Of a DNA stretch of 64,000 bases, positions 1 through 50,140 are shown one piece after another. The stretch comes from Lysobacterales bacterium (lineage in GTDB: Bacteria > Pseudomonadota > Gammaproteobacteria > Xanthomonadales > SZUA-38). Position numbers and translations under genes: made by a program. The stretch spans positions 1-64,000 of the forward strand of contig JANQOZ010000109.1 in the NCBI GenBank assembly GCA_028285525.1, in the 5' to 3' direction. Under the pieces are notes generated by a model, which worked only from the letters and a program-made list of their open reading frames with translations, searched no databases and was not told the origin of the DNA. The stretch's first letter is position 1. Each line of letters begins with the position of its first letter.

Positions 1-1430
1 TCACTACCCTCGTAAACCACCGAACCCGTCGACGAAACCAAAACCTCGTGAAGATCCAGCGGTAATGCGGAGCCAACGGCAACGTCGGGGCCGGCGGCCG
101 AGCTGGCGGATATCGGTGGCGCCCACTGGTCCAGCGGTAACTCAGGCTGCTCGGATATCAGTATCAGCGATCGCTTCAGGCCGTCGATCCAACCGCGAAC
201 TGTCGCTTCGTCAAAAAGGTCCGTGTTGAAAGTTGCCTCAAGGAGCACGCCGTCTGGACCCGGCAGAAAGTTGAAAAAGACCTCAAAATTCTCTGCTACA
301 CGGGGCAGTGTCCTAAGCCGACAGGTCAAACCATCCAGCTCTATGCCCGCAAACTCCTGATCGATGTTGAAGACCACAGGAATAAGTGGAATCCGCGCAG
401 CATCACGCGGGACGTTCAATTGTCTGACTAGTTCTGCAAACGTGAAGGACTGATGCTCGTAAGCATCCATCACGGCTTCCTTGACGCTCGGAACGAGCTC
501 CGCAAAGGATGCATTCGCAGGAACCTGCTGTCGGACTGGCAGCATTTTTACGCAGTGCCCCACCAGCGACTGAAAGTCCCCATCCAGCTGACCGGCGACA
601 GCCATGCCAAGAATCAGGTCATCCTGACCTGTTAGCTGCCGCAGCTGCAGGAACAGTGCACTGAGAAAAGAGGCGACCAGCGTCGCACCCTGCCGACCGC
701 CGGCCCGGGTGAAAGGATCGATCAAATCCCGCGAAAACAGGACGTCGAGGCGGCGGGCACCGAAGGTGCGAAATTCCGGTCGAGCGCGATCCAGAGGCAA
801 ATCAAGCGGCGCCGGAAGCGTTGCAAATTTTTCCAGCCAGTGTGACGCATCCGCGTTTCCGTGACCTCGAGACTCATGGAGCGCATAGTCAACGAACGAT
901 TTGGGTGGCTCCAGCTGCGCTTCAACCTCGTTGAGGGAGGCGTTGTAAAGCCCTTCGAGTTCTTCGAGCAGCACCGCCATCGACCAACCGTCGACCACGA
1001 TATGGTGAAACAGTAGAAAAAGCGTATGTTGGTCGTGCGACTGCTGCACCAACACGACACGCCAAAGTACGTCTTGCTGCAAATCAAAAACGTGTCGAAC
1101 CAGCGCGGCGCGCTGCTCTTCCACCGAATACTGATCGGCGTCTGTGATTACGTCAAAATCAAGCCGCGGGCTCGCGGCGATACAGGCAAACATGCCGCGC
1201 CGGTCGAAATTGGCCCTCAGGGACTCGTGACGTTCCGCCAATTCGATGAGCGCGCGCTCCAGCGCCACTCTCTGCAGCGGGCCGCTGAACTCGAGTTCAA
1301 TTCCCTCATTGAACGCCAGCGCAGCCTGTGGATCCGCAAGACAAGAGGAGAAAATCTCCTTTTGCGAAGCGGTTGTGGGAACCGCGGCGTCCAGCTCTCC
1401 ATCGCGAAAGGGATTGAAACTCGTCTTCAC
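1..1430 (-). CDS. Non-ribosomal peptide synthetase, N-terminal condensation domain (partial, runs off left edge)
   Basis: About 476 residues are visible and the frame is open to the window edge. A GTG start at 1430-1428 overlaps the TGA stop of the upstream PKS gene (GTGA), so translation is probably coupled. The visible part is a complete condensation domain. Its catalytic motif HHIVVDGWS lies at about residues 142-150 (H142, H143, D147), followed by a latch-type stretch and a linker at the cut end. Condensation domains form the amide bond between an upstream carrier-bound acyl or aminoacyl donor and a downstream aminoacyl acceptor. Position suggests that the donor is the amino-acyl chain made by the preceding KS-AT-ACP-aminotransferase protein, so the new beta-amine or another amine would be acylated or used here (inference). 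An adenylation and carrier domain should follow outside the window. The condensation identity is firm; the substrate is unknown. Confidence 0.9.
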   Translation of the reverse strand, partial: MKTSFNPFRDGELDAAVPTTASQKEIFSSCLADPQAALAFNEGIELEFSGPLQRVALERALIELAERHESLRANFDRRGMFACIAASPRLDFDVITDADQYSVEEQRAALVRHVFDLQQDVLWRVVLVQQSHDQHTLFLLFHHIVVDGWSMAVLLEELEGLYNASLNEVEAQLEPPKSFVDYALHESRGHGNADASHWLEKFATLPAPLDLPLDRARPEFRTFGARRLDVLFSRDLIDPFTRAGGRQGATLVASFLSALFLQLRQLTGQDDLILGMAVAGQLDGDFQSLVGHCVKMLPVRQQVPANASFAELVPSVKEAVMDAYEHQSFTFAELVRQLNVPRDAARIPLIPVVFNIDQEFAGIELDGLTCRLRTLPRVAENFEVFFNFLPGPDGVLLEATFNTDLFDEATVRGWIDGLKRSLILISEQPELPLDQWAPPISASSAAGPDVAVGSALPLDLHEVLVSSTGSVVYEGS

Positions 1431-4400
1431 TTCAGGGAAACCGCCACATAGTTGCCGTCGTCGCCTTTGACATACCAGGCAGGATTACCCTGCTCGTCGC
1501 GGCCAAGTTTTGCGTCTGTTGCCGGTCGATTCTCTGGCAGGAACTGCTCCTCTGGGGGCATAGCCCTGGCGTCCAGGAGATCGTTAGCGACCATTTCGGC
1601 GGCAGCCGTCTCAAAAGCCGCCAGCAACTGCTCGAGCATCTCTGGCGTATGAGCCTGCGTCAAAAAGCAGGGCCGATGGCTCCAGATATGCACTCCTTGT
1701 TCGCGCAGCAGACTGAAGAACACTTCAGCGAAGGGAACCTCCAGATCGAAATAGAATACGGAACTGAATACCTGCGCCCTGATATCTACCCCCAGTCTTC
1801 GCATCCGCAGGTTCAGTTCTGCACAGAAGTCTGCCGTCGTCTGGTTTAGATTTTGTTGCAGTCCGCCACCTTGTTCCTTCAGGTGGCGCAGGACTGCCCT
1901 GCTCGCCGCCATGGCAAGAGGGTGCCGAACAAAAGTTCCTGCAAAGAAGGTCACGCCGACCTCAGGCGAGGATTCGTCACCAAAACGCCATTGACCACCG
2001 TCCATGGCGTCCATGTATTTAGCTTTCCCCGCCACAACACCGATCGGGTACCCGCCACCGAGAATCTTGCCGTAGGTCGCCAGGTCGGCTCGAATTCCAA
2101 AATACTCCTGCGCTCCACCCGGCGCACAGCGGAACCCGGTAACCACTTCGTCAAATATCAGCGCAATACCGTTTTCTTCGGTTACCGCGCGAAGCTGTTT
2201 CAGGAATTCAGCCGGCTGGATATCCGGCGCGCGGCTCTGGACCGGCTCCACCATTACTGCCGCAATCTCGCTGGCCTGAGATCTGATCACGTCGATCATA
2301 TCCATATCGGCCCAGGGCAGAACCATCACGTTATCGGAAACAGAACGAGGAATTCCGGGCGCGCCAGGGAGCGCCTGACCGGTCTTTCCGCCTCGCACGA
2401 TCACCTCATCGAAGATTCCATGATAGGCCTGCTCGAAGGAAACAACACGCGTGCGGTTGGTCACGGTCCGAGCCAGCCTGATCGCGGCCAGCACCGCCTC
2501 GGATCCGGTGTTGGCGAAGGTCATTCGTTCATTGCCGGTCATTTCGCATAGAAGCTGAGCGACCTCTCCAGCCAGCTCGGTTTGCGGACCAATTTCAACG
2601 CCCAGGTCTATCTGCGCTTTGACTGCTTCCGTTATGAATGCCGGCGAGTGACCAAAGAGAATCTGACCAAAGCCGTTGGTCAAATCGATGTACTCGTTAC
2701 CGTCAATATCCCAAAGCTTTGCGCCACTTGAGCGACGGGTCACTATCGGATACACCATCTCTTTCCAAAGCGGGTTGAACCCCGATACGGTCCGAGGATC
2801 GGCAAAGTGTGTCCGGTGCTCCTGAGCAAATGCTTTCGATGCCGGAGTGCGAGCCACGTAACGGTCCTGGATTGCCATCAGGGCACTTTTCTGCCGTTCC
2901 GTCAGCTCACCAGCTTGGCTGGAGATACGCGTGCCGGGGCCCCGGCGCCTTGCCTGATCCAGCTTTTGCTGCACCTCAGCGGGTAAGTCGATTGCCTTGC
3001 TCGCGGTGCTTGACTGCACCGCCAACTTTTTCTCACCCAGGGCAGCCGGAAGCTCGCCAGTGCCTCCCAGCGCCTGCAGCTGCAGCCTCATGATTTCCAG
3101 CTGGTTTTGGATAAGCGCATTCAGAGCCGCGCCGGGCTCACCGCTCGTTGGCAGACCAGTCATCTGCGCCATCACCTGCATGTTCTGATCCGACTGAACA
3201 GGCGTAGCCGGCGCTGACACCGCAAGCGCCGGGTTCTTCTCGGCCAGGTATGCGGCCAGCGAACTGACCGTGTTGTACTCCTCAGATAGATCCCGGAAGC
3301 TGATCGATACCCCAAACTCAGAGCTTACGGTCCGGCTCACCTGAGTCAGCAAGAGTGAATCCAGGCCGAGTTCCAGAAACGACAGGTCGTCCTGATCCGG
3401 CACCACGCTAATGCCCGAATACTCTTCGAGCATCTCCCGAAGCTGCTCCCGCAATGGGCTGGTGACATTCTGCGGTGGTTCGCCAACCTCAGGCTCTGAG
3501 ATCTTCGCTTCGGAGGTTTCTTTGGTCTGGTTGATTGTCATACCGGTTCCTTCCGGTTCATCGACACAATAGGTCGTTGGTTCAAACTCGTAGCCAGGCA
3601 GCGGGATTCGTCGGCGTTTCTCGTCTGCGTAAATTCTGTCGGCATCCAGAGGCAACCCGCTGGTCCACAGTGCCCCCCAAGCACCCGCGAGGGAATCGAT
3701 CGCAGCCGACTTCAACGTATGGCTAGCAGTGACAGCATGGCGCTGTTCAAGGGGCAGGCCCCTTGCAAGCGATGCGAGGGTTGATCCCGGGCCGGCTTCG
3801 AGAAAGACCAGATCGCGGGCGTCTTCGTTAAGCGTTGTAAGCGCGGCCAGGAAGTCTACCGGCTGCGCCAGCTGCCTCGCCCAGTAGGACGGACTGACCG
3901 CATCAGTATCGCTTAAACGCTCACCAGTCACAGTCGAGATGATCGGCACTCCAGGAGGCGCTGTTCGCACGCCGCTGAGGTATTCCTCCAGCTCATCAGA
4001 AGCCGCTTTCATCATCGTCGAATGGAAGGCATGGGAGGTGTTGAGTATCTGGCATGCCGTACCGCGCTGCTTCAAAGATGTGGCAAACGCCTCAACGTCA
4101 GGCGTCTTGCCGGCCACCACAACGCTGCGAGGTCCGTTTACGGCCGCCAGCGAGAGTTCAGGCGGCAGGTGTTCGGAAAGGTCCGAGAAACCGGATCGAA
4201 CGGCCAACATCGACCCAGGTTCCTGAGCTTGCATGAGCTCCCCGCGACGGCAGACGATCTTCATCGCGACCTCGGGCGACCACATGCCGCTGATACATCC
4301 GGCGGCAAACTCTCCAATGCTGTGCCCAATCAGTGCTGCCGGCTCCAGTCCGTGATTGATCCAGTAGTTCCCCAGGGCCCAGGAGACAGCAAACAGCGCG

Positions 4401-6208
4401 GGCTGGGCGAGTTCGGTCTGACGAAGCTTTTCCTGAGCCCGATAATCTTCAGGGTCGGCATGAAACAACAGCTCTGTCAGGATTGCTTCTCGCTCTCCAG
4501 CTGCAGCGAGCATCCGTCTGACGTCCTCACCCACCGATTCGAGCTGGCCGACGAACCCTGCTGCCATGCCGGGTTGCTGGGCACCCTGTCCCGGAAACAT
4601 GAAAACACAATCCGTCGCGGCTCCCGCCTTGGCGGCAGTCCATGCTGATCCGGGATTGCTCTTAAGAGCTCTTTCAGCAGCAACATCCGGCCAGCATTCG
4701 GGCGCGCCGAGCAGGGCGCCACGAAAAGCGTGAGGCTCGCGTGTTTTCAGGACCGTGTAGGCGGCGTCGGCCGTGTCGGCAGCATCCACTTTGGTCAGGC
4801 GGCCGATCATCGCTTTTGCCAGGCGATCTAGGGCTCCCTCCGTGCGTGCGCTGAGGAGCAGCGCAGGAACGCGGGAAAGCCTGTCCGACTCGCGGTATTC
4901 GGGCCACTCCTGGAGAAGAACATGGGCGTTGGTACCACCTACGCCAAACGAACTGACGGCACCTCTTCTTGCCATCCCGTTCGGTAAATCCCACGCCTGA
5001 GACTGACTGTTGACGGCGAAACGCGTTCCTTCGAGACCAAGGTTTGGATTCGGCTTAACATAGTTTTGGACACCCGGAATTGTCGCGTGCCGAAGCGAGA
5101 GCGCCATTTTGATCAGGCTGGCTGTACCCGCGGCATGAATCAGGTGGCCGATATTCCCCTTGATCGAACCCAAAAAGCACGGCACCTCGCCGCGGCCATA
5201 AACCTCTTTCAGGGCAGCCACCTCGACCGGATCACCCAGGGGGGTTGCGGTACCGTGCGCTTCGATATGGGTGACGGATTCCGGCTCAACATCCGCTACG
5301 CCCAGCGCGAGACGCAGCGCATCCGCCTGTCCGCCGACACTCGGTGCGGTAAAGCTGACTTTGCTGTTTCCGTCGTTGTTGATTCCCGCGCCCAGGATGA
5401 CCCCGTGGATCGTGTCGCCGCTGTTCTGTGCGTCTTCCAGCCGCTTGAGCAAGACCAGGGCGGCACCTTCGTTGAAGGTTGTTCCGCTCGCCTCGGCATC
5501 AAATGGCCTGGTTCGTCCATCCCTGGAAAGCATCCCACCTTCGTTGTAAAGGTAGCCGCGATTCGAAGGCGGATTTAGCGATACGCCTCCTGCAACCACA
5601 CAGTCGCTTTCGAAGTTCAGCAGGCTGCTGACTCCCTGGCACACCCCGACAAGCCCGGTTGAGCAGGCGGTCAACAGATTGATACAGGGGCCTCGAAAAT
5701 TGAACAGATACGCCAACCGAGTCGCTGGGAAGTCATGTTCATTGGCTATCGAAGAGTTCAGCTCACCGAATCGCTTAACGAGCTGCTGGCCTGAAGGAGA
5801 GCTGAGATAATCAGACTGGTAGCGATTCCAGTTCGAGCCCACAAACACACCGACGCGATCATCAACGCGTCGTATGTTGATACCCGCGTTTTCAAAGAGA
5901 TGCCAGGTCAGTTGAATCAAAACCCGATGCTGCGGATCCATGATGCGGGCTTCCATTGGGGAAATTCCAAAGAACTCTGCATCGAAATCCATTGCGCCAT
6001 CGACGATGCCACGGGCAGGAACGTAGTTACCGTCAGACGTTATCGCGCGATCTACCGGATGAATCTCGGACTCTGTAAACAGCCGCACCCCGTCGACTCC
6101 CTCGAGCAAACCTTGCCAGAGTTCTTCCACGCTGTTGGCACCCGGGAATCGTCCGGCCATACCGACAATTGCCACCGCATCTTCTACGGCGAACTGTGAG
6201 TCATTCAT
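1427..6208 (-). CDS. Type I polyketide synthase fused to an aminotransferase (KS-AT-ACP-AMT)
   Basis: A 1593-residue multidomain protein. The ketosynthase (about 10-435) has active-site C182 in TACSTGL, H318 in EAHGT and H355 in GNIGHL. The acyltransferase (about 530-830) has S630 in GHSIGE and HAFHS at 726-730, the pattern of malonyl-CoA-specific ATs. The carrier domain has S951 in LGLDSL. After a Q/A-rich linker comes a class III PLP aminotransferase (about 1120-1540), with D1353 in FDEVVTGF and the PLP lysine K1381 in TYGKILGGG. The family resembles glutamate-1-semialdehyde aminomutase and the AMT domain of MycA in mycosubtilin synthesis. Expected chemistry is one malonyl extension followed by conversion of the beta-keto group to a beta-amine while still bound to the ACP. 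The ATG overlaps the stop of the upstream A-PCP gene (ATGA), and the downstream NRPS overlaps its stop. Domain calls are secure; the substrate is inferred. Confidence 0.95.
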   Translation of the reverse strand: MNDSQFAVEDAVAIVGMAGRFPGANSVEELWQGLLEGVDGVRLFTESEIHPVDRAITSDGNYVPARGIVDGAMDFDAEFFGISPMEARIMDPQHRVLIQLTWHLFENAGINIRRVDDRVGVFVGSNWNRYQSDYLSSPSGQQLVKRFGELNSSIANEHDFPATRLAYLFNFRGPCINLLTACSTGLVGVCQGVSSLLNFESDCVVAGGVSLNPPSNRGYLYNEGGMLSRDGRTRPFDAEASGTTFNEGAALVLLKRLEDAQNSGDTIHGVILGAGINNDGNSKVSFTAPSVGGQADALRLALGVADVEPESVTHIEAHGTATPLGDPVEVAALKEVYGRGEVPCFLGSIKGNIGHLIHAAGTASLIKMALSLRHATIPGVQNYVKPNPNLGLEGTRFAVNSQSQAWDLPNGMARRGAVSSFGVGGTNAHVLLQEWPEYRESDRLSRVPALLLSARTEGALDRLAKAMIGRLTKVDAADTADAAYTVLKTREPHAFRGALLGAPECWPDVAAERALKSNPGSAWTAAKAGAATDCVFMFPGQGAQQPGMAAGFVGQLESVGEDVRRMLAAAGEREAILTELLFHADPEDYRAQEKLRQTELAQPALFAVSWALGNYWINHGLEPAALIGHSIGEFAAGCISGMWSPEVAMKIVCRRGELMQAQEPGSMLAVRSGFSDLSEHLPPELSLAAVNGPRSVVVAGKTPDVEAFATSLKQRGTACQILNTSHAFHSTMMKAASDELEEYLSGVRTAPPGVPIISTVTGERLSDTDAVSPSYWARQLAQPVDFLAALTTLNEDARDLVFLEAGPGSTLASLARGLPLEQRHAVTASHTLKSAAIDSLAGAWGALWTSGLPLDADRIYADEKRRRIPLPGYEFEPTTYCVDEPEGTGMTINQTKETSEAKISEPEVGEPPQNVTSPLREQLREMLEEYSGISVVPDQDDLSFLELGLDSLLLTQVSRTVSSEFGVSISFRDLSEEYNTVSSLAAYLAEKNPALAVSAPATPVQSDQNMQVMAQMTGLPTSGEPGAALNALIQNQLEIMRLQLQALGGTGELPAALGEKKLAVQSSTASKAIDLPAEVQQKLDQARRRGPGTRISSQAGELTERQKSALMAIQDRYVARTPASKAFAQEHRTHFADPRTVSGFNPLWKEMVYPIVTRRSSGAKLWDIDGNEYIDLTNGFGQILFGHSPAFITEAVKAQIDLGVEIGPQTELAGEVAQLLCEMTGNERMTFANTGSEAVLAAIRLARTVTNRTRVVSFEQAYHGIFDEVIVRGGKTGQALPGAPGIPRSVSDNVMVLPWADMDMIDVIRSQASEIAAVMVEPVQSRAPDIQPAEFLKQLRAVTEENGIALIFDEVVTGFRCAPGGAQEYFGIRADLATYGKILGGGYPIGVVAGKAKYMDAMDGGQWRFGDESSPEVGVTFFAGTFVRHPLAMAASRAVLRHLKEQGGGLQQNLNQTTADFCAELNLRMRRLGVDIRAQVFSSVFYFDLEVPFAEVFFSLLREQGVHIWSHRPCFLTQAHTPEMLEQLLAAFETAAAEMVANDLLDARAMPPEEQFLPENRPATDAKLGRDEQGNPAWYVKGDDGNYVAVSLK

Positions 6209-8067
6209 GAGGTAGTTATCCTTCCGCGCCGCCGGCGTCGCGATGCTCGGGCTGCCGCCGCTCGCTGACCTGCATCCTCCTGTTGGGCCTGCTGCGTCTC
6301 ACCAATGAACGCCGCCATCTGGCGGATTGTGGGATACTCAAATACGCGAGTCACCGATACCTCCCGGCCCGCGAGCTTCGTAAGGTGCTGAGCGAGTTCT
6401 AGCGTCTGAAGGGATGTGCCACCAGCGTCAAAAAAGTTCCGATCTGGGTCCCCAAGCTCGCCGGCAGGCAGAAAGCGTGCCCAGACGCTGGCCACCAATT
6501 TCTGAGCCTCATCGCCAAACGCAGGCCCGCTATTCGTCTCGTTAATTTCGGATTCGTAGGGGTTTGGCAACCGATGCTCGTCCAGTTTGCCCGTCGGCCC
6601 CAGCGGAAAGCTGTCCATATGAATGAACTGAGCAGGCACGATAGGCTCAGGAAGTCGCTCCGCGAGAAAGCTCCTAAGGCCTTTTTGGGGGACTTCGGCA
6701 AGATAGTAGGCGACGAGCTGCTTTTCGCGCTGCCGATCAGGCTTGATTCGGACACGGGCATCCGAGACATCGGGATGCGCCAGCAGGTGACTCTCCAGGT
6801 CTCCCGGCTCCACGCGATGCCCCCGAACCTTTAATTGACCGTCATTGCGGCCCTCGAAGAAAAAACAGCCGTGCGCATCTCGCCTGGCGAGATCCCCGGT
6901 GCGGTAGTAAAGCCGGCCATCCATCTCGACAAATCGTTCGGCCGTCTCTTCGGGCCGATTCCAGTAACCACCCGCAACACCCGACCCGCTGGTAAACAGC
7001 TCGCCGATTTCACCATCCAAGACGTCGTTCCCGTCTCGCAGCAGCCTTACTCCTGTTTTCGGCAATGCCTGCCCGATAGCCATCGGCCCGGCGGGGTCGA
7101 GGTCCCGGGGCACCACATAAGCAGTAGTAAATACGGTGTTTTCAGTCGGTCCGTAACCGTTAATGATTCTGATACCGGCGTTTTGTGCATATACGTTGAG
7201 GCAATGCTGGACGGCGAGTGCCTCTCCGCCGACGAAGAGCCGTTCCAGACCTGCAAAGCACTCGGGCGCCAGCGCGGCAAACTGATGAAATAGCGATGTC
7301 GTCAGGAATACCGTCTCTACACCATGAGTTTTGATGATCCGGCCGAGTTCGGCGGGTTGCGGTATGTTTTCGGGCGGATACAGGACGCAGGTTCCACCGC
7401 ACGCGAGGGCGCCGAACAGCTCGAATAATGAAGCATCGAAGGTCGGTGCTGAAATCTGAAGAGTTTTGGTGGAACCGTCGAAATCGCCGTAGTGTGATGG
7501 ATCAAATAGCCGGCTGATTCCGGCGTGGGTTATCCGGACCCCTTTCGGCCTGCCAGTGCTGCCCGAGGTAAACATCAGGCATGCGGTCGAATCGTCTGCC
7601 AAGCCGTGGGCAGGAAGAAAACCCTGATTATCGATAGTTGATTCCAAGGCCTCGGATAGCCTCACCAGCTTCAGATCCTGTGCAGGCAGGTCCAAGCCCT
7701 CGTCAACGAGGCAAACAGCATCCTTACAATCATCGAGCATGACTCGAATCTTCGCCTCGGGATAGCGAGGGTCAATCGGCAGGTACGCTGCGCCGGTCGC
7801 GAGCACCCCCAGCCACCCGGCAACCGCCCTTGACGACCGATGTGCGAGAACCGGAACGACATTCCCGCCGGAAACCCCAAGATTTTGAAGCGCGGAACCG
7901 ACGGTGCTTGCATCGCGGGCAAGTTCCGCGTACGACAGTTGCAGGCCCGACGAGACGTCCACCAACGCGATCCGATCTCCCTGTCGGGCGACAAGGTCGG
8001 AAAAGCGTCTCCAGAGATGGTTTGCGCCGGACTCCCCTGCAGCCACTGGCATTTCCTTGGACTTCAC
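6205..8067 (-). CDS. NRPS loading protein, adenylation and peptidyl carrier domains (A-PCP)
   Basis: A 620-residue stand-alone A-PCP didomain with no condensation domain, so it probably starts this assembly line. The adenylation domain (about 15-500) shows core motifs FTSGSTGRPKG (166-176), YGPTEN (305-310), YRTGD (388-392), KVRGHRVEPGDLE (413-425) and the catalytic K494 in GPTGKLD. The carrier domain ends the protein, with the pantetheine serine S552 in DAGGTSL. Aligning by eye to GrsA gives pocket residues D-A-F-L-F-G-G-V-F-K. The aspartate at the amino-binding position implies an alpha-amino acid, and the rest suggests a hydrophobic one; I cannot name it. The start is GTG at 8067; an ATG at 8052 is the alternative. 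It is first in an operon with the KS-AT-ACP-AMT gene (4-base overlap). The upstream 277-base gap is shared with a divergent hydrolase gene. Confidence 0.93.
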   Translation of the reverse strand: MKSKEMPVAAGESGANHLWRRFSDLVARQGDRIALVDVSSGLQLSYAELARDASTVGSALQNLGVSGGNVVPVLAHRSSRAVAGWLGVLATGAAYLPIDPRYPEAKIRVMLDDCKDAVCLVDEGLDLPAQDLKLVRLSEALESTIDNQGFLPAHGLADDSTACLMFTSGSTGRPKGVRITHAGISRLFDPSHYGDFDGSTKTLQISAPTFDASLFELFGALACGGTCVLYPPENIPQPAELGRIIKTHGVETVFLTTSLFHQFAALAPECFAGLERLFVGGEALAVQHCLNVYAQNAGIRIINGYGPTENTVFTTAYVVPRDLDPAGPMAIGQALPKTGVRLLRDGNDVLDGEIGELFTSGSGVAGGYWNRPEETAERFVEMDGRLYYRTGDLARRDAHGCFFFEGRNDGQLKVRGHRVEPGDLESHLLAHPDVSDARVRIKPDRQREKQLVAYYLAEVPQKGLRSFLAERLPEPIVPAQFIHMDSFPLGPTGKLDEHRLPNPYESEINETNSGPAFGDEAQKLVASVWARFLPAGELGDPDRNFFDAGGTSLQTLELAQHLTKLAGREVSVTRVFEYPTIRQMAAFIGETQQAQQEDAGQRAAAARASRRRRRGRITTS

Positions 8068-8344: not shown

Positions 8345-9034
8345 ATGGACCACGCATTCTTTGGCCAACGCCAACAGTTGTTCGGCACATTTCATCCAGC
8401 CTCTGGCCAAACCCGAGATCGAGCCGTGCTGATTGTCGCACCACCCTTCGGCGACAATCTGCGGAGTCATTGGACCCTGAACAAGACGGCAAGCAAATTG
8501 GCGGAAGCAGGCATCGACGTACTTCGGGTCGACTTGTCGGCGTGCGGGAACGCGCCTGGCGACCTGGGTGAAGTCACCTGTAAGACGTGGATTGCGGACT
8601 GTCAGGAAGCGCTCCAAGAGCTAAGCGACCTGTCTGGATCCACCAGAGTAATCACCTTTGGGGTGCGTTTTTCTGCCGCTTTGATGCTTGCCGCACTGGA
8701 TGGGGCCGGTAGCCGTGCCGAAACCATTGCCTGGGACCCAGTTTGGGACGGAAAGCAGTACTTGGAAGAGCTTCGAGCTATCAAATTTGGACCACAATCG
8801 GAGGGCGTACTGGCGGGTCACGCTGTTTCGGCAGACTTGATATCAAGCTTTGCCGACTTCGCAATTGAACCCGGTGATGACGAGAATACGCTTGTCATTG
8901 CGACAACCGAGTCTTTTCCGGGCACAAACGTCTCGCAGGTTAACCTCGACTGTGAGTGGGCCTTGGCAGATTTAAAGATGATTTACGGTCACGACATCGT
9001 GAGCACCACCGTAGAGTGGTGCGGACGCCCATGA
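8345..9034 (+). CDS. Alpha/beta-hydrolase-fold protein lacking the nucleophile serine (exosortase-associated hydrolase 2-like)
   Basis: A 229-residue protein with an alpha/beta-hydrolase fold: strand-rich N-terminus, PFGDN near the oxyanion position (34-38) and a DVLRVDLS segment (58-65). The nucleophile elbow, normally GxSxG, reads GVRFS (106-110), with arginine where serine should be, and no clear catalytic histidine is seen. It resembles the protein at 11457-10675, which carries GLRLG at the same place. Both look like the 'hydrolase 2' family found beside exosortase A loci (from memory). It overlaps the next gene by four bases (ATGA), so the two products are probably made together. A non-catalytic partner or carrier-protein-binding role is inferred. 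The ATG has only a weak ribosome-binding site. Confidence 0.75.
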   Translation: MDHAFFGQRQQLFGTFHPASGQTRDRAVLIVAPPFGDNLRSHWTLNKTASKLAEAGIDVLRVDLSACGNAPGDLGEVTCKTWIADCQEALQELSDLSGSTRVITFGVRFSAALMLAALDGAGSRAETIAWDPVWDGKQYLEELRAIKFGPQSEGVLAGHAVSADLISSFADFAIEPGDDENTLVIATTESFPGTNVSQVNLDCEWALADLKMIYGHDIVSTTVEWCGRP

Positions 9035-9831
9035 AACCGGAAATTCATCGTTTTGGTAAACAAAGGGAATTACTGGGTTTTTCTCAAATTCCAGACAAAC
9101 ACAACGGTACAGCGCTGATTTTTCTCAATTCCGGGCTGCTTCCATCGATGGGCCCCTTTCGGCTATTCCTCGAGTATGCGGATGAGATGGCCGAGAAAGG
9201 ATTTGTCACCGTGCGCTTCGATCAGTCCGGGAAAGGCGACAGCTACCGAAGAGACATGGATCGACCTGAGGCGAATTCACTGGATTTTCAGGCCGTTAAA
9301 GAGTTGTTGGATTCTGCGAGAGTTGAACGTTTCGTACTGATCGGGCTGTGTTCGGGCGCCGACGACGCAAGCCAGATCGCCGAGCAATTCTCCTGCATCG
9401 ATGCTGTTGTATTGCTTGATGGCTTTGCTAAAAAAACGAGGGCATACCAATTGCGGTACTACCTGCCACGGATTCTCAAGGTTGCGCCGATGGTCCGGGG
9501 CGTAATTCGGAAATTCAGGTCTTCCGGATCCGGTGACGGGATGCTAACGCCGGTGTCGTTACGCAATTGGGAGAGCGACGACCAGATGATCGAGCGATAC
9601 CAAAAACTGCTGAACCGAGGAGTTAGGATACTCGCGATCTTCACCGGGGGCATAGAACGTTACTACAATCACCAGGGCCAGCTGACAAATGCTGTGGGGG
9701 CATCACCAAACCTGACTGAAATCTATCAGCGAGACGCGGAACACATTTACCCGGAACCCTCGCAACGGCGTTGGCTGAAGTCAACGATTACCGAGTGGTT
9801 GGACCAGCACTTAAGGATTACTGAGGTTTGA
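9031..9831 (+). CDS. Alpha/beta hydrolase with a cysteine nucleophile elbow (exosortase-associated hydrolase 1-like)
   Basis: A 266-residue protein; the ATG at 9031 overlaps the stop of the preceding hydrolase-fold gene. Family features are LNSG at 32-35, the VRFDQSGKGDS segment (61-71), a nucleophile elbow GLCSGA (105-110) placing C107 at the catalytic position, and H238 in the late DAEHIY motif as the likely catalytic histidine. A GxCxG elbow is known in dienelactone-hydrolase-like enzymes, so thioester or ester cleavage is plausible. It is paralogous to the protein at 10682-9837 and lies tail to tail with it, five bases apart. Context inside an NRPS/PKS cluster without a thioesterase suggests release or proofreading of carrier-bound intermediates (inference). 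Confidence 0.8.
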   Translation: MKPEIHRFGKQRELLGFSQIPDKHNGTALIFLNSGLLPSMGPFRLFLEYADEMAEKGFVTVRFDQSGKGDSYRRDMDRPEANSLDFQAVKELLDSARVERFVLIGLCSGADDASQIAEQFSCIDAVVLLDGFAKKTRAYQLRYYLPRILKVAPMVRGVIRKFRSSGSGDGMLTPVSLRNWESDDQMIERYQKLLNRGVRILAIFTGGIERYYNHQGQLTNAVGASPNLTEIYQRDAEHIYPEPSQRRWLKSTITEWLDQHLRITEV

Positions 9832-9836
9832 AGCGC

Positions 9837-10682
9837 CTACCGGGTTTTCCTATCCACAATGCGGACCCAAGCCACAATGTCCTCCGGAATCTGCTTCTGG
9901 TGACTGAGGCCGGTCAAAATATGCGTCGCGTCGAAATGGTAATCGACCCTCAATCGGCCAGCAAAATTCACGTCCGAAAAACTACTTTCGAACTGCCCGG
10001 GATAATTCAACGTCTGCATTTGACCGCCGGTAAAGATCGCAAAAATCTGCGTACCGGCCTCGACAATTTTTGAAAGTCCCTCAGCCACCTGCTCTCGCGG
10101 AGGTTTTACTCGAATATAGCTGGGCATTTCCACGAATTCGTCGTCTGGCTGGTCCCCTCTACTGGCCGGTTTATTAAGACGAAACAATCGCTTGGCAAAA
10201 CGCATCCATACATTGGGATTTAAAAGTCTCGGACCATAGTGGTGGAAATACCATCTTGGCGTGCGATAGCAGAACGGATCGATCTGGATGATACCAATGA
10301 CCCTAGAGTCGACCTTCGCCACCTCATAGGATCCGTCCGCGCCGGAACACAGGCCATAGAGCACGAAGCGATTGATGCCACGCTTGCGCTCAAGGTAGTT
10401 CATCACCTCAGCGGTTTCCTCGATGGCGGTTTCCTCGAAGGGCTTGCTGCCACGGCGGGTCTCGCTGTCCCCGATACCCGAAAAATCGAACCGCACCGAC
10501 AGATAGCCGGCTTGGGCCAAGGTTCGCGCGATATGGACCGACATGCGGCAGGTGCCCACATGGTGCATCACGCCGGAGTTCAGGATGACCACCGCGGGGG
10601 CGCTGGCGTCCACGCTGTCCGGCTGGGAAACAATGGCCGTCAGGGGCGTGGGTTTACCGATTCTGACCGCTCTCTCACGCAC
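9837..10682 (-). CDS. Alpha/beta hydrolase with a cysteine nucleophile elbow (exosortase-associated hydrolase 1-like), second copy
   Basis: A 281-residue protein from a GTG at 10682, which overlaps the end of the upstream gene by 8 bases and has GGAGAGG about 12 bases before it. An upstream in-frame TTG at 10715 is the alternative start. Motifs are LNSG (34-37), SVRFDFSGIGDS (62-73), elbow GLCSGA (110-115) with C112 as putative nucleophile, and H254 in FDATHIL. The architecture matches the plus-strand paralog at 9031-9831. It is the last gene of the operon that starts with the glycine/monooxygenase NRPS and the KR-DH PKS. The likely role is hydrolysis of a thioester or ester in that pathway; the exact substrate is unknown. 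Confidence 0.8.
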   Translation of the reverse strand: MRERAVRIGKPTPLTAIVSQPDSVDASAPAVVILNSGVMHHVGTCRMSVHIARTLAQAGYLSVRFDFSGIGDSETRRGSKPFEETAIEETAEVMNYLERKRGINRFVLYGLCSGADGSYEVAKVDSRVIGIIQIDPFCYRTPRWYFHHYGPRLLNPNVWMRFAKRLFRLNKPASRGDQPDDEFVEMPSYIRVKPPREQVAEGLSKIVEAGTQIFAIFTGGQMQTLNYPGQFESSFSDVNFAGRLRVDYHFDATHILTGLSHQKQIPEDIVAWVRIVDRKTR

Positions 10683-11457
10683 GGGAGTTTTCGTCCTCTC
10701 CAAACCAGCCCACAATCGCCTGGATGATGGGCTGCGGCAGCAGGATACCGCCGAAGTCGTCCACGTAATTCCAGTCTCCGGGCGCTGGCGTCAGGCTGAA
10801 TTCATAGTTGGGCAACTGCTGCCACGCCGATCTGAGCTTCTGCCCTTCAGGATAGTCGCTCGAGACGACGTGGAAAACCCGTTTCGCCCGCGGCTCCATC
10901 GTCAGCAGATCGGCGCCAGCCAGCCCATCGCGCAGCGCCTTGGATAGTCCGAAGCCGTTGAAATAGAGCGTACCGTCGTCGTCGATGAAGTTATTGTGCG
11001 CCTCGTCCCCGAGGTGCATGACCTCCTGAAGTTCCGCTTCGTAAGCCGCGCCAGAGTTGACCGGATCCCACAGCACGAGGCGGTCGAGTTCGAGCTGGGT
11101 ACTGGCCACCGCACCGAGCAGTCCACCCAGACGCAGCCCGATCAGGTGAAGGTGGGTGATTCCGGCGGTTTCGCGAAGCTCCTCGGCCGCGGCCGAGATG
11201 TCGGTGAGCCATTGCTCTAGGTCCGCGTCGGCCAGCACGCCACTCGAGTTGCCCGTGCCGCTGTAGTCAAAGCGCAGCACGTGGTACCCCTGTTTGGCCA
11301 GCAGCATGGCCAGCTGCCGGTTGGCCCGGTGGGCTCGCATGTATTCCTGGCCAAAGGGGTAACATACGAGCACACCTTCACTGCGCGGGCGTCCCCCCGG
11401 GGGGTGGTAGACCCCGAACAGCGGTTCCGCTGAAGGGCCGAAAAACAGCGGCGTCAC
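10675..11457 (-). CDS. Alpha/beta-hydrolase-fold protein lacking the nucleophile serine (exosortase-associated hydrolase 2-like), second copy
   Basis: A 260-residue protein. The GTG at 11457 overlaps the TGA of the PKS gene (GTGA), so it is translationally coupled to it. It has an alpha/beta-hydrolase fold with CYPFGQEY (32-39), HVLRFDYSGTGNS (59-71) and an elbow reading GLRLGG (107-112), where R109 replaces the nucleophile. No convincing catalytic histidine appears near the C-terminus, where the usual position reads GDWNYVDD. It matches the 'hydrolase 2' family of exosortase A loci (from memory) and the plus-strand paralog at 8345-9034. It is probably not a classical hydrolase; a structural or binding partner of the adjacent cysteine hydrolase is the favoured inference. 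Confidence 0.75.
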   Translation of the reverse strand: MTPLFFGPSAEPLFGVYHPPGGRPRSEGVLVCYPFGQEYMRAHRANRQLAMLLAKQGYHVLRFDYSGTGNSSGVLADADLEQWLTDISAAAEELRETAGITHLHLIGLRLGGLLGAVASTQLELDRLVLWDPVNSGAAYEAELQEVMHLGDEAHNNFIDDDGTLYFNGFGLSKALRDGLAGADLLTMEPRAKRVFHVVSSDYPEGQKLRSAWQQLPNYEFSLTPAPGDWNYVDDFGGILLPQPIIQAIVGWFGEDENSRA

Positions 11458-14400
11458 GAGCGTTTACCGAACAGCGACTTGACCAGCCCGCGGCGCTGCG
11501 CTGGTTTTTCGGCTTCAGGCTCCGCCGAAGCGTCGGGTTCCGTGGCCGCTGGTGGCGCCGCGGCCGTCTCGTCCACCTCGTCGATTCCGCGCTGGGAATC
11601 GACCTCGGCAGCTACCTGCTCCAGGGTCTGCAGCGCCATAATCGCCTGGTTGAGCTGCACACCAAATTTCTTGTTGGTCTTGGTGATGGCGCGGATCGAC
11701 AGCAGCGAGTGGCCACCCAGGTCGAAGAAATTTTCATCGACGCCGATCCGGTCCACGTCCAGCACCTCCTGCCAGATGGCGACAATCGCCTTCTGCGTTG
11801 GCGTTTCCGGGGCCTCGAAGGTGTCGACGGGCGCAAACGGGTCAGTCAGCAGCTTGCGCTTCGGCTGACCACTGCTGTCCAGCGGGATCTCGTCGATTTC
11901 GATAAGGTGCTGCGGCAGCAGCTCCGGCGCCAGCTCAGCCTTCAGGTGCCGCCGAAGATCGCTGACGGTGACATATTCATCCGGGTCCACCACAAAATGT
12001 GCGACCAGGCGGCGTTCGTCCTCTTCGTCCAGGTGCGAACGAACAACGGCGAGTTCGATCGCCTCGTGGTCGAGCATCGCCGCTTCGATGACCGGAATAT
12101 CGGGGTCGATGTCAGCGTCGTGGCCGGAGTCGGCCACCACCGTGGCGCGGGCACCGCCGCCCCCGCTCTGCGTAAGCTGCTGCACCATGAGATCGATTTC
12201 AAAGGCCGCAACAGCAACCTGGGGCAGCCCCACCCGGCGCAGCGCCATGTCGAACGCCGTGGCGCCCTCCTTGGGCGAAATACCCAGCTCCAGCGTCCGC
12301 TTCAGTGCCGGGTCCAGCTCATCGTCGGCCGGCGGCGCGCTGAGCGCGGCGGCCAACCGCTGCATGGTGAAGTTTTGCACCATCAGCAGCGGCGTACCCG
12401 CTTCGTCGGTCACCACGATGTCGAAGGTGACACTGTCTCCCGCGCGGCCTTCGCTGGCTTCCTGTTCGCGGTAGGTCACGTGACTGTACCAGCGTCCGGC
12501 GGTGGCCCCGAAGTAGGTCAAGTTCTGGTAACCGACCGGCACATACAGCTCGTCCATCGGCTGATAGCCGGGAATCAGCGCCTGCGCGCCCGCGGTCGCC
12601 ATGTCCAGCATCGCCGGATGCAGCCGGTAGTGCTCCAGATCGGATTCGTGGGACCCGAGGTCAATCTCCTCCAGCGCTTCACCCTGCCCCAGGTGAATCG
12701 CCTTCAGGCTGGCCCAGCGAGGCCCAAAATTCAGATGCGGATGGTGGTCCGCCTCGTCGAACCGCTGGACCCGCTCCGTGCAGCGCGCCAGCAGCTCGCT
12801 GCGCGGCTCCGCGCTGATCGACTTCGGCGCAGCCGGAGTGATGTCGCCGCGGCAGTGTTCGGTCCACTCACGGCCGGCTTCACTACTGATGAGAAATTCA
12901 CCCTCAGCCAGGTCCACCACCACCTTCAGTGCGCGGCGGTCACCATCGGGAACAAAAAACGGCGCCATGAAAAACACGTTGGCCATGGCCACCGTGGACT
13001 GCCCGGTCGCCTCGGCAAAAGCCGCCCGCGCCAGCTCGATGTAGCCCGCGCCGGGGATCAGTGCGTCGTTGCTGGCGGCGAGCCGGTGCTCGTCCAGCAC
13101 CCAGTCCGTGTCGGGACTGAAGATCTTGATGAACTCGCAGCGTTCCTCGGTTCGGGTCACGCAGGTTCCCAGCATGGGGTGAGTAACGGCCTCACCCAGC
13201 GCCGCCAGCTCGATTGCGCTGCCGTCGGCGATGGACGCCGCCATACCCACCTGGCGCCACGCCGGCCAGTTGATCGCCGTGTAGGCGGTGCCGTTGGTGC
13301 CGTCGCGGTGCGCACAGTAGCTGTCGAGATAGGCGTTGGCGGCCGCGTAGTCGATCTGGCCCGGCAGGCCGGCAAAGGCGCTGATGGACGAAAACGCCAC
13401 AAAAAACCTGAGCTGCTCACCGGCAAACGCCTGGTCGAGCAACCGGGTGCCCTGCACCTTGGGGGCCAGGACGCGACGGGCGTCGGCCGGCTCCTTGAGC
13501 TGGATCAGCGCGTCGTCGATCACGCCCGCGGTGTGGACAACGCCGCAGACCGGACCGAACTGTTCCCCGATCCTCGCGCGCAGTGACGTCACCTGGTCAG
13601 GGCGGCTGATATCGGCCGCAAGGTGAGTGACCGTCGCCTTTTTGCTGATCGACAGGAGCGTCTTGAATCGCTTAGCCAGCGCGCCGGGGCCCTCAGCCAG
13701 CGTCTCCCACTCATCAGTGGGCGGCAGCTCGCGCCGGGAAACGAGCACGAGGTTGAGCTTCGCCTGCTCTGCGAGTTTTTCCGCCACCACCAGCGCCAGG
13801 CCGCCGATGCCGCCGGTGATCACCACGGTGTCGTTGTCCCTGAGTTTCACCAGGGGCGCACCCTGCGGCGGCAGCGCCGCGTCGAAGCCGCTGACGAAAC
13901 GCTGGCCGTTGCGCAGCGCAATCACGGCGTCACCCGTTTCCTCATCCGGGTCGCCGGCTGCGCGAACGAGAATTTCCCGTTCCAGCGAGGCAAGCCAGTT
14001 GCCGGCGGAACCGCTGCCGGCCTCCAGGTCCACCAGGCGTGCCTCCACCGACCGCAGCTCCCGGTTGGCGACGCCGACCGGACCGAGCGCCAGGGCCTGG
14101 CCAGGGTCGGCTACCGTTTCGGCGCCCACCGCAAACAGGCCGCGGGTCACGACGGTGATCGTCATGCCCTCCTCGGGATCTTCGTCCGCCACTGCCTTGA
14201 CCAGGGCAAACAGCGGCTGGAACACCGACTCGACGGGGTCCGCGGTGCTGTCGCCTTCGACAAACACCACCACGTCCGTCGGCAGCTCGTTGCTCTGCGC
14301 CGCCCCGGCGAGCAGGTCCGCCCACGCCTCCGCCTGGTCCAGCGGCAGGCTGAAGCCGTGGTCGGCTGGCGCCAGCTCCGCTCCCCGGGTGGCGCGGATA

Positions 14401-17267
14401 ACCGCTGCCCGGCCTTCAATCCGGCTGGCCAGCGCGCGCGCTTCCTGGCCGTCGCCAACCACCATGATCCGCTGCTGCGTGCGTTCAGGCGCCGTGTCGG
14501 GCAACCTGCCGGCGCGACGCCAGACGGGCTGGTAAAACCAGTGGGCGATGTCTTCCTCGCGCTTCAGACCCGCCACGTTGCCTTCCGAGAACACCTCGTC
14601 CCCGGGCTCGACCCAGTAGCGCGCGTGGTCGAAGCTGTAGGTCGGCAGCGCCAGCCGCTGCCGCCGCTCGCCGTCCCAGTAAGGCCTGAAGTCGCTGACC
14701 CCGCCGGCCTGCCACAGCGCGCCGAACATCCGCAGCATGAATGCCTGATCGGACTCGCCGTCATCCGGATGTCGCATGGAATGGACAATGCCACCCCCGA
14801 CGGTGTTCGCCGGGTTAATCTGGCACAGACTCGACAGCGTCTTGCCGGGCCCAACCTCCAGCAGGGTGAGATTCGGTTTGGCCAGCAGCGCCTCGGCGCA
14901 GTCGGCGAATCGAACCGTATGCCGAAGATGCTGCACCCAGTAGTCCGGGTCGGTCGCCTGCTCGTCGGTCATCCAGGAACCAGTGAGATTGGCCGTCAGC
15001 GGAATTTTCGGTGCGCTGAGCTCCATGGAACGCAGGTAGTCGCCGAAGGCCTCGAGGATCGGCTCCAGCATGCTGCTGTGCGCGGCGATGTTGATGCGCA
15101 CCCGCTGAAACTCGATTTCCTGCTGGTTCAGCGTGTTTTCGAGGGCGGCCAGGGACTCGCTCGGGCCGGAGACCACGGACAGTTCCGGTGCGTTGACGCA
15201 GGCGAGCGACAACGCGTTGTCCATCAGCTCGCGCAGACGCTCCTCGCCGGCCTGCACGCTGAGCATGCCGCCTTCCGGCACGGTCTCGAAGAGCTGACCG
15301 CGCAGCGCCACGAGCCCCACCGCGTCGCGCAGGCTGATCACGCCGGCGATACAAGCGGCGGTGTTTTCGCCCATGGAATGGCCGGTCAGACAGACCGGCT
15401 CCACACCCCAGGACATCCAGAGCTTCGCCTGGGCGTACTGGGCGGTAAACAGCGATGTCAGTGACCGGGTGGGGCGCTCGAGCTCAGCGCGCGCCGACTC
15501 TAGCTGATCCGGCGCCGGGTACATGAGCGACTTCAGGTCAAAGTCGATGAAATCCTTCAGATGGTTCAGGCACTCGTCCACCGCCGCGCGGTACACGGGT
15601 TCGGTGTCATAAAGGTCTTTGCCCATGCCCGGATACTGGGCGCCGCCGCCGGCAAACATGAAGGCGACCTCGGCAGCCTGCTCCGGCGCCGCCGCCGTCA
15701 GCACCCGGTCAGCCGGCTGCTGGGTCAGCAGTTCGATCGCCTCGGCGTGGTCCGCGGCGGCCAGGACGCGGCGCTGGCCAAAGCTTCGTCGTCCGGTCTG
15801 CAGCGTATAGGCCAAGTCCGCGAGCGGCACGTCCGGGTGGGTTTCGAGGTACTGCGCGAGCTTCTTGCTGTTCCGATTGAGCGCCTTCTCCGTGCGCCCG
15901 GACACCGTCAGGAGCACCCGCTCGCTGCGGTGCGGCGCGCTGGCCCGAGCCGGCGGCGCCTCCTCGAAGATCAGGTGCGCGTTGGTGCCACCGACACCCA
16001 GGGAGCTGACCCCGGCACGCCGGGGACCGTCATCGCGGTGCCAGGGTTTGACCTGGGCGTTGACGTAGAACGGGCTGGATTCCCAGTCGATCGCCGGATT
16101 GGGCGCCGTGAAGTTGATGTTCGGCGGCAGTTCCCGGTGCCGCAGGGCCTGGATCACCTTGATCGCGCTGGCAACGCCCGCGGCGGTGTCCAGGTGCCCG
16201 ATGTTCGCCTTCACCGAGCCAACGCCGCAGAACTGTTTCTTGTCGGTCTCGCGCTGATAGGCGCTCGTCAGCGCGGCGATTTCGATCGGGTCGCCAATCG
16301 GGGTACCGGTCCCGTGACACTCGACGTAGTCGATGCTGTCGGGATTGATGTCAGCCACCATCAGCGCCTCGTGGATTGCCGCCGCCTGGCCGTCGACGCT
16401 CGGCGCCATGTAGCTGACCTTGCCCGCCCCGTCGTTGTTGACGGCCGAGGACTTCAGCACGGCGAGGATGTTGTCGCCGTCAGCCAGCGCGTCCTCCATG
16501 CGCCGGAGCACGAGCACTCCCGCTCCGCTGCCAAACAGCGTCCCCTGGGAGTTGGCGTCGAACGGCCGGCAGTGGCCGTCGGGAGACAGGATTTCACCCT
16601 CCTGATACGTGTAGCCGCGGTGATGCGGCATCTCGATCGTGACGCCGCCCGCCAGGGCCATGTCACACTCGTGGCTGAGCAGACTCTGTGCAGCCAGGTG
16701 CATGGCCACCAGCGAAGTCGAGCAGGCGGTCTGCACATTGACGCTAGGGCCGGTCAGGTTGAAACAGTAGGACACGCGGGTGGTCAGGAAGTCCTTGTCG
16801 TTGCCGGTGTGGCGGACCAGGAACAGGCCGTGGCGGTTCATGTACTGCGGGTTGGTGAACAGGTTGTACGGCATGTACGCGTTGTGACCGGAGCCACCAA
16901 AAACGCCGACCGCGCCGTCAAACTGCGCCGGGTCGTGTCCGGCGTTCTCCAGCGCCTCCCAGGCCACCTCAAGGAACTGCCGGTGCTGCGGATCCATCAT
17001 GGACGCTTCCAGCGCGCCGAAGCCAAAAAACCCGGGATCGAACTGATCCATCTTGTCCAGGATCGCGGCAACTTTGACGTAGCGCGGGTCATCAAGGACG
17101 CTGTCGGGCACACCCTGGTGACGCAGCTGCTCGTCGGTCAGCGGCGTAACGCTCTCGACGCCGTCCCGCACGTTGCTCCAGAATGCGCCGGCATCCAGCG
17201 CGCCGGGCAGCCGGCAGGCCATCCCGACGACCGCGATATCGTTTGAAATGTCCAGGTTTGTACTCAC
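11454..17267 (-). CDS. Type I polyketide synthase (KS-AT-KR-DH-A-domain remnant-ACP)
   Basis: A 1937-residue protein with a GTG start at 17267. The ketosynthase has C182 in TACSTSL, H318 in ECHGT and H358 in ANIGHL. The acyltransferase has S631 in GHSMGE, but the specificity motif reads IAAHSSM (727-733), neither HAFH nor YASH, so the extender is uncertain. The ketoreductase has TGGIGGLA (1151-1158) and the FSSIS / YAAAN catalytic pair (Y1307). The dehydratase-like domain has H1394 in DEHRLA, 11 residues before the IPGAGY proline rather than the usual 9, and D1555 in LHPAMLD. Residues about 1725-1810 match the C-terminal subdomain of NRPS adenylation domains without the rest of one. The carrier serine is S1854 in LGGHSL. 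The expected product is one extension reduced to a double bond. No thioesterase is present. The gene lies between the Gly-module NRPS and two hydrolases in one operon. Confidence 0.93.
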   Translation of the reverse strand: MSTNLDISNDIAVVGMACRLPGALDAGAFWSNVRDGVESVTPLTDEQLRHQGVPDSVLDDPRYVKVAAILDKMDQFDPGFFGFGALEASMMDPQHRQFLEVAWEALENAGHDPAQFDGAVGVFGGSGHNAYMPYNLFTNPQYMNRHGLFLVRHTGNDKDFLTTRVSYCFNLTGPSVNVQTACSTSLVAMHLAAQSLLSHECDMALAGGVTIEMPHHRGYTYQEGEILSPDGHCRPFDANSQGTLFGSGAGVLVLRRMEDALADGDNILAVLKSSAVNNDGAGKVSYMAPSVDGQAAAIHEALMVADINPDSIDYVECHGTGTPIGDPIEIAALTSAYQRETDKKQFCGVGSVKANIGHLDTAAGVASAIKVIQALRHRELPPNINFTAPNPAIDWESSPFYVNAQVKPWHRDDGPRRAGVSSLGVGGTNAHLIFEEAPPARASAPHRSERVLLTVSGRTEKALNRNSKKLAQYLETHPDVPLADLAYTLQTGRRSFGQRRVLAAADHAEAIELLTQQPADRVLTAAAPEQAAEVAFMFAGGGAQYPGMGKDLYDTEPVYRAAVDECLNHLKDFIDFDLKSLMYPAPDQLESARAELERPTRSLTSLFTAQYAQAKLWMSWGVEPVCLTGHSMGENTAACIAGVISLRDAVGLVALRGQLFETVPEGGMLSVQAGEERLRELMDNALSLACVNAPELSVVSGPSESLAALENTLNQQEIEFQRVRINIAAHSSMLEPILEAFGDYLRSMELSAPKIPLTANLTGSWMTDEQATDPDYWVQHLRHTVRFADCAEALLAKPNLTLLEVGPGKTLSSLCQINPANTVGGGIVHSMRHPDDGESDQAFMLRMFGALWQAGGVSDFRPYWDGERRQRLALPTYSFDHARYWVEPGDEVFSEGNVAGLKREEDIAHWFYQPVWRRAGRLPDTAPERTQQRIMVVGDGQEARALASRIEGRAAVIRATRGAELAPADHGFSLPLDQAEAWADLLAGAAQSNELPTDVVVFVEGDSTADPVESVFQPLFALVKAVADEDPEEGMTITVVTRGLFAVGAETVADPGQALALGPVGVANRELRSVEARLVDLEAGSGSAGNWLASLEREILVRAAGDPDEETGDAVIALRNGQRFVSGFDAALPPQGAPLVKLRDNDTVVITGGIGGLALVVAEKLAEQAKLNLVLVSRRELPPTDEWETLAEGPGALAKRFKTLLSISKKATVTHLAADISRPDQVTSLRARIGEQFGPVCGVVHTAGVIDDALIQLKEPADARRVLAPKVQGTRLLDQAFAGEQLRFFVAFSSISAFAGLPGQIDYAAANAYLDSYCAHRDGTNGTAYTAINWPAWRQVGMAASIADGSAIELAALGEAVTHPMLGTCVTRTEERCEFIKIFSPDTDWVLDEHRLAASNDALIPGAGYIELARAAFAEATGQSTVAMANVFFMAPFFVPDGDRRALKVVVDLAEGEFLISSEAGREWTEHCRGDITPAAPKSISAEPRSELLARCTERVQRFDEADHHPHLNFGPRWASLKAIHLGQGEALEEIDLGSHESDLEHYRLHPAMLDMATAGAQALIPGYQPMDELYVPVGYQNLTYFGATAGRWYSHVTYREQEASEGRAGDSVTFDIVVTDEAGTPLLMVQNFTMQRLAAALSAPPADDELDPALKRTLELGISPKEGATAFDMALRRVGLPQVAVAAFEIDLMVQQLTQSGGGGARATVVADSGHDADIDPDIPVIEAAMLDHEAIELAVVRSHLDEEDERRLVAHFVVDPDEYVTVSDLRRHLKAELAPELLPQHLIEIDEIPLDSSGQPKRKLLTDPFAPVDTFEAPETPTQKAIVAIWQEVLDVDRIGVDENFFDLGGHSLLSIRAITKTNKKFGVQLNQAIMALQTLEQVAAEVDSQRGIDEVDETAAAPPAATEPDASAEPEAEKPAQRRGLVKSLFGKRS

Positions 17268-17341
17268 TTCTTCTTGCCGCGGATCACTTCGCAGGCTGTG
17301 CAGAATAGCTCTCGGTAGCGACTATGTCGTGCAAATCCACG

Positions 17342-47096: not shown

Positions 47097-47098
47097 AA

Positions 47099-49392: not shown

Positions 49393-49413
49393 CAGGCCTT
49401 TTCCATTTCGTTC

Positions 49414-50043: not shown

Positions 50044-50140
50044 GTAGTTCTACCCTTCTGAGAACTTTCCAGCGCAGTTGCAAGCTGGCCCAAAAATAGC
50101 AAGTATATCAGGAGATCATCACGCGCCAGGTCCATTGACC

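Follow-up and report, generated by a model that had tools for sequence, protein, structure and literature searches.

What is an assembly line that starts from an amino acid and then builds a ketide doing among the genes for a bacterial coat polysaccharide? The question is raised by the window, i.e. the whole stretch of 64,000 nucleotides that we analysed from a Lysobacterales bacterium (bases 1-64000 of contig C77, 136,657 bases long, in an assembly of 125 contigs and 6.2 Mb), whose left end carries three overlapping genes of nonribosomal peptide synthetase (NRPS) and polyketide synthase (PKS) type. Here and in many relatives, this line sits in an exopolysaccharide (EPS) locus, of PEP-CTERM type in the window, rather than forming a free-standing natural-product cluster. 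We hold with moderate confidence that it is an NRPS/PKS line built into the EPS locus, which would make a nonribosomal diamino-acyl peptide for the EPS and probably see it attached there. A first-pass annotation of the same DNA had recognised the gene layout and proposed a beta,gamma-diamino building block; the layout is confirmed and the building block well supported as a prediction, whereas the EPS setting had been missed and the purpose of the line is to be seen differently.

Gene trio and its domains

The three genes all lie on the reverse strand.

6205-8067, reverse strand: A-PCP loading protein of 620 aa with an adenylation (A) domain at about 6586-7992 and a peptidyl carrier protein (PCP) domain at about 6304-6495
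1427-6208, reverse strand: KS-AT-ACP-AMT protein of 1593 aa with ketosynthase (KS, 5060-6181), acyltransferase (AT, 3770-4606), acyl carrier protein (ACP, 3245-3448) and aminotransferase (AMT, about 1685-2752) domains
3-1430, reverse strand: start of an NRPS truncated at the contig end, with a condensation (C) domain and then what is probably the beginning of an A domain

According to the list of open reading frames (ORFs), the loading protein gene overlaps the KS-AT-ACP-AMT gene by 4 bases, and the latter overlaps the NRPS gene by another 4. Pfam finds AMP-binding, AMP-binding_C and PP-binding but no Condensation in 6205-8067, then KS, AT, PP-binding and Aminotran_3 in 1427-6208 (Aminotran_3 sitting between the ACP and the NRPS C domain) and Condensation in 3-1430. 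A pattern search returned TACSTG (with its Cys) and NIGH for the KS; the first KS histidine was missed by the search pattern, and the protein shows EAHGTAT at that place when read by eye. Other motifs are GHSIGE and HAFH in the AT, LGLDSL in the ACP, YGKILGGG in the AMT, GGTSL in the PCP of the loading protein and HHIVVDG in the C domain. ORFs, Pfam and motifs thus bear out a stand-alone A-PCP that overlaps KS-AT-ACP-AMT, itself overlapping a C-first NRPS, as originally described, and the malonyl type then assigned to the AT agrees with GHSIGE and HAFH (HAFH denotes a malonyl-type AT, and YGKI(L/I)GGG is the lysine-bearing AMT motif).

A congener, G001, has the trio with 95-98% identity, which excludes a chance ORF pattern. 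Since the contig starts at window base 1, the NRPS runs on outside the assembly; in G001 it extends in frame by 48 bases or 16 residues, reading ...YEGSELSGAELDLRARRIGS, and this resembles an A-domain start. For the NRPS to the left of the contig end we predict C-A(Gly-like)-PCP-C-PCP. The rest of the window assembly offered no fitting A-domain contig and no overlapping contig end for the continuation, and the rest of the genome held no C domain besides that of 17342-21664. When genome contigs were scanned with the KS-AMT protein at full length, the matches were four in number, all of them actinobacterial PKSs.

Family comparison of the AMT, as the first-pass annotation had suggested, places it nearest to MycA among solved structures (PDB 6kfm, 437.7 bits), with 210.8 bits for the best glutamate-1-semialdehyde aminomutase. 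We class the domain as MycA-type on this ground and predict transamination of a beta-ketoacyl-ACP. The likeness to MycA (mycosubtilin) and related AMT lipopeptide lines extends to the order KS-AT-ACP-AMT followed by a C domain. MycA-type lines begin with a fatty acyl ligase, however, while the window line starts with an amino acid A-PCP, so that the beta-amine would adjoin an existing alpha-derived amine. A fatty-acid-started AMT lipopeptide line (mycosubtilin, iturin or puwainaphycin type) is ruled out for the window by its starter A domain, which is of NRPS type.

The starter and the predicted diamino unit

An A domain activating something other than an amino acid, or a condensation protein upstream that feeds the KS with a different starter, would each have undone the diamino proposal. 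The loader scores 345.4 bits with TIGR01733 for amino acid adenylation (cut-off 317.4), and its pocket code, DAFFFGGVFK, comes with Asp235 (the amino-binding Asp named before) and Lys517. The amino acid type is well founded in this way, and the loaded residue may be Val- or Ile-like, the code being hydrophobic and similar to those for Val and Ile. As for upstream condensation, the whole genome of G001 has a single C domain and it is located downstream of the AMT. Among 36 AMT lines with a readable loader (window included; counted by hand), Asp235 is present in 36/36, and the loader A domain is fused to the KS polypeptide in 29, being an adjacent gene in the other 7. So as far as genomes can tell, the A-PCP is the starter of the window line. 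Three further loaders (G551, G577, G662) were unreadable, cut at the end of the fetched stretch, and no A-PCP-type loader was seen in the stretch read of five AMT lines (G166, G194, G202, G206, G239). In a weak AMT tree with several long branches, one branch (support 88/88, not starred) has 40 of the 41 rows labelled loaded on the same side of it; the remaining row, G014, was so labelled without a loader having been read, and G633 likewise.

The starter amino acid probably differs between species, for 16 of the 36 loader codes look Val-like, 7 Pro-like and 2 Thr-like, the window falling among 11 others. The A domain after the AMT has mostly the Gly-like code DILQxGxxWK in relatives. Second modules in G045, G084, G099, G134 and G643 (L064, L060, L068, L070, L184) have an abnormal A pocket without Asp235, and in a number of other relatives the A domain is missing and C is followed directly by PCP; loading of the last residue there may hence take place in trans or be dispensed with.

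The loader data across lines make a 3,4-diamino unit the simplest one to predict. Its assembly would start with the A domain of 6205-8067, which would load a hydrophobic, Val/Ile-like alpha-amino acid onto its PCP; the KS would join the aminoacyl group with malonyl-ACP into a 4-amino-3-oxoacyl-ACP, and the MycA-type AMT would replace the 3-oxo group by an amine, so that a 3,4-diamino acyl chain results (3,4-diamino-5-methylhexanoyl in the case of valine). The downstream NRPS would then add at least one residue, glycine-like in most relatives, to yield a short diamino-acyl peptide. Within the reach of sequence evidence, the diamino proposal of the first-pass annotation is therefore upheld, the loader Asp in 36/36 and the fusion in 29/36 lending it good support. 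Statine-type units (e.g. pepstatin) arise when an aminoacyl group is extended by malonyl and the 3-hydroxyl is kept; the window unit would share the malonyl extension and carry an amine at the 3-position instead.

That no vicinal diamine forms seems to us very improbable, be it that the KS refuses a free aminoacyl-PCP, that the 4-amino-3-oxo intermediate cyclises (as free 4-amino-3-oxoacyl thioesters can) or that the AMT is inactive. KS and AMT activities are indeed sequence-based predictions and one relative, G135, retains loader and KS-AT-ACP with no AMT, but the KS, AT, ACP and AMT motifs of the window line are intact, its AMT is nearest to MycA, and the AMT is kept with the loader in 36 lines of differing loader codes.

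The rarity supposed for assembly lines of this kind in the first-pass annotation is not supported. Already known in 2013 as A-CP-KS-AT-CP-AMT, the layout is listed in Table 2 of a survey of embedded pyridoxal phosphate (PLP) domains as A-CP-KS-AT-CP-PLP1 for Pedobacter heparinus (C6XWU5) and Thiorhodococcus drewsii (G2E5C9), two proteins with the same domain order as the window line (PMC3870968). That of Pedobacter heparinus is predicted there as Nrp-Mal-Gly-Pk; both are sequence predictions without a product, and the main text of the survey is free of the words polysaccharide and exopolysaccharide (PMC3870968). For a link between EPS and NRPS or for the diamino unit in print, nothing on point was found by a search that left most subscription journals outside and used some narrow queries.

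Exopolysaccharide locus and hydrolase pair

Two hydrolase genes diverge from the A-PCP gene, and EPS genes follow further to the right.

8345-9034, forward strand: hydrolase-2-like alpha/beta protein with Arg in place of the nucleophile (GVRFS)
9031-9831, forward strand: hydrolase-1-like alpha/beta protein with a Cys motif (GLCSG); the ORF opens at 8956, and ATG 9031 is the likely start
27931-28959 and 28956-29576, forward strand: two polysaccharide deacetylases with homologues in related loci
43349-44650, reverse strand: polymerase resembling Wzy and O-glycosylation ligases
45783-50043, reverse strand: EPS machinery of XrtA/PEP-CTERM type (TIGR03016-type outer membrane protein, tyrosine autokinase, chain-length determinant, export protein)
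50586-51986, reverse strand: initiating polyprenyl glycosylphosphotransferase EpsB_2
52182-53549, forward strand: TviB-like UDP-sugar dehydrogenase, with homologues 61-65% identical in 4 of 10 related loci tested

Glycosyltransferases and sugar-nucleotide enzymes are also among the EPS genes of the window. The export protein reaches 200.5 with TIGR03027 (cut-off 180) and the chain-length determinant 331.2 with TIGR03007 (cut-off 278.85). The locus is akin to the XrtA/PEP-CTERM EPS system in its export, chain-length, kinase, outer membrane and EpsB proteins as well as in a Cys (1)/Arg (2) hydrolase pair. It differs in that the hydrolases have NRPS/PKS lines next to them, instead of or in addition to the small ligase and carrier genes, in that the hydrolases, although related to the exosortase-A hydrolase 1/2 pair (TIGR03100, TIGR03101), score under the curated cut-offs (53.3 and 75.8 bits versus 168.45 and 202.75), and in that XrtA (TIGR03109) is absent from the window genome, which rules out a true XrtA system. 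Among the 398 genomes of the order, XrtA was matched in 7. A PEP-CTERM-type EPS set at 45783-51986 thus sits in a genome lacking exosortase A. The window genome has no 16S gene; in G605, a genome of the same order, the 16S is closest to Aeromonas (87.3%, or 91.4% in its first 600 bases) and next to Methylomagnum, with Burkholderia heading the matches of the 3' part, so that the order is probably gammaproteobacterial and may be Xanthomonadales.

Line, hydrolases and EPS genes recur together in relatives. Of the 398 genomes, 91 from 26 of 98 genera have an AMT, 95 have hydrolase 1 and 87 have both; the two share a contig in 78 of these 87, lying within 50 kb of each other in 74 of the 78, within 10 kb in 31 and about 400-460 kb apart in two genomes. 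The congener G001 keeps both hydrolases at 81-85% identity. With 24 window proteins (hydrolases included) as queries, we compared 40 kb around the line (20 kb in G664) in 10 same-order loci, which had already been fetched and are not a random sample, with ten control stretches of 40 kb from other parts of these genomes: all 10 loci had 3-9 distinct matches (3 in the weakest, G125), versus none in 8 controls and one in the other 2. In the G045 locus, which was read throughout, export, chain-length, kinase and outer membrane proteins are followed by hydrolase 2, hydrolase 1 and GalE, then by deacetylase, formyltransferase, glycosyltransferase, Wzy, deacetylase, glycosyltransferase, the NRPS and A-PCP-KS-AT-ACP-AMT. 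A second contrast of 12 further loci set 5 AMT lines without an A-PCP loader, all 5 devoid of EPS matches, against 7 with one (in G662 the loader is cut off with the PCP visible), of which 5 had 4-6 EPS matches. The reading of the line as a secondary-metabolite cluster for a beta,gamma-diamino building block with no polysaccharide link, i.e. the first-pass reading as it stood, may draw on domain order and A-domain type, yet EPS linkage and hydrolase co-occurrence make it improbable.

Within this neighbourhood a PaaK-like AMP ligase (40441-41790, reverse strand) has 41-45% identical counterparts in several related loci and might load the last A-less PCP. FG-GAP repeat proteins are encoded at 24129-26222 (reverse strand) and 35232-36878 (forward strand); an FG-GAP-like gene is also near the line of Variovorax WDL1.

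Annotated plasmids widen the picture. From 34 records in which one place covered at least 80% of the window protein, eight loci were read, and in five (Rhizobium CCGE531, Rhizobium SL42, Aliiroseovarius M344, Rhodobacter CZR27, Variovorax paradoxus VAI-C) the line stands beside EPS genes and a phosphopantetheinyl transferase (PPTase); these EPS genes are mostly of other families, window EPS proteins matching 1-4 genes in 4 of the 5. The other three (Variovorax WDL1, Variovorax RA8, Spirosoma linguale; L163, L164, L165) bring in an alternative that we judge unlikely without dismissing it lightly, namely a free exported small peptide, e.g. a ligand for a metal, perhaps copper, that merely resides in the EPS region. 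A vicinal diamine combined with glycine amides could plausibly chelate a metal. Around the WDL1 and RA8 lines, no more than about 20 kb away, are genes for copper oxidase, cupredoxin, copper-binding protein and TolC, the Spirosoma line adjoins a multicopper oxidase and copper ATPases, and some lines carry a thioesterase (TE) domain. However, WDL1 and RA8 share one neighbourhood and so amount to about one case, in Variovorax paradoxus VAI-C the same line has EPS genes as its neighbours, and a free peptide would have to account for EPS neighbours in 10 same-order loci and for hydrolase 1 in 87 of 91 AMT genomes.

For a peptide attached to EPS, the divergent hydrolases offer a candidate means of transfer. 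In our alignment the nucleophile place is Cys in 59/59 hydrolase 1 rows and Arg in 55/57 hydrolase 2 rows, and canonical exosortase-linked hydrolase 1 loci with a readable motif have Cys too. Judged by these residues, hydrolase 2 is probably a catalytically dead partner and hydrolase 1 a candidate release or transfer enzyme; a Cys enzyme with a dead partner would fit transfer of carrier-bound acyl groups. No TE was found by Pfam in the second NRPS proteins of G045 and G084. Peptide release would probably be aided by the pair, and the most likely acceptor of the peptide would be an amino sugar in the EPS repeat, whose amine the deacetylases of the locus could unmask.

Several points weigh against an EPS-bound diamino-acyl peptide. 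The product of the line is predicted from genes alone and the window NRPS is cut by the contig end. Foldseek matches hydrolase 1 to general esterase-like folds only, which does not discriminate, and the Rhizobium and Rhodobacter lines have a third protein, C-PCP-TE, whose own TE indicates that the hydrolases are not always needed. The co-occurrence of AMT and hydrolase 1 (Fisher p about 1e-72) ignores kinship; four genomes have the AMT only and eight hydrolase 1 only. Many genomes have 20-35 kb between hydrolase 1 and the line, so that the hydrolase may serve the EPS rather than the NRPS. Among the loaded loci of the second contrast, G351 had one match only (a PPTase) and G528 no EPS match in 20 kb. 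Finally, the three plasmid lines of WDL1, RA8 and Spirosoma adjoin copper genes and gave no match to window EPS proteins, so an EPS role is not universal.

On balance we still favour the EPS-bound peptide. More tentatively, and somewhat short of an even chance to our minds, a class of EPS widespread in Gammaproteobacteria, Betaproteobacteria and Alphaproteobacteria bears a nonribosomal peptide whose first unit is a 3,4-diamino acid, with hydrolase 1 (Cys) and dead hydrolase 2 as its transacylase pair and XrtA-linked hydrolases 1/2 elsewhere doing the same job for simpler carrier-bound groups. Bacteria may, in other words, decorate coat sugars with an unusual two-amine unit. If so, a conserved NRPS/PKS would belong to polysaccharide biosynthesis rather than secondary metabolism, linking two separately annotated fields; coat polysaccharides would carry positively charged diamino groups, which would bear on adhesion, biofilm and metal binding; a source of 3,4-diamino acids would be at hand; and the exosortase-linked hydrolase 1/2 pair would gain its first function open to testing.

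Neighbouring second line

Next to the hydrolase genes lies another set of NRPS/PKS genes.

9837-10715 and 10675-11457, reverse strand: a Cys/Arg hydrolase pair of its own
11454-17267, reverse strand: KS-AT-KR-DH-PCP, with KR before DH
17342-21664, reverse strand: C-A(LLM)-PCP with an inserted luciferase-like monooxygenase (LLM) of the MupA/Atu3671 family

This is a separate line, 9837-21664 being absent from the congener G001. As a source of starter for the KS of 1427-6208 it is rejected, because G001 has the trio and the hydrolases without 9837-21664 and no other C domain. In its place G001 (L054 11322-17102) carries a KAS III, an NAD synthase-like gene, an exosortase-type acyl-CoA ligase, an ACP and an asparagine-synthase-like amidotransferase. 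The PKS of the second line had no match in the phage collection. In G034 an A-LLM-A-PCP protein is encoded close to hydrolase genes, and on Ruegeria and Paracoccus plasmids a related PKS and an LLM protein are found among glycosyltransferase and sugar transferase genes.

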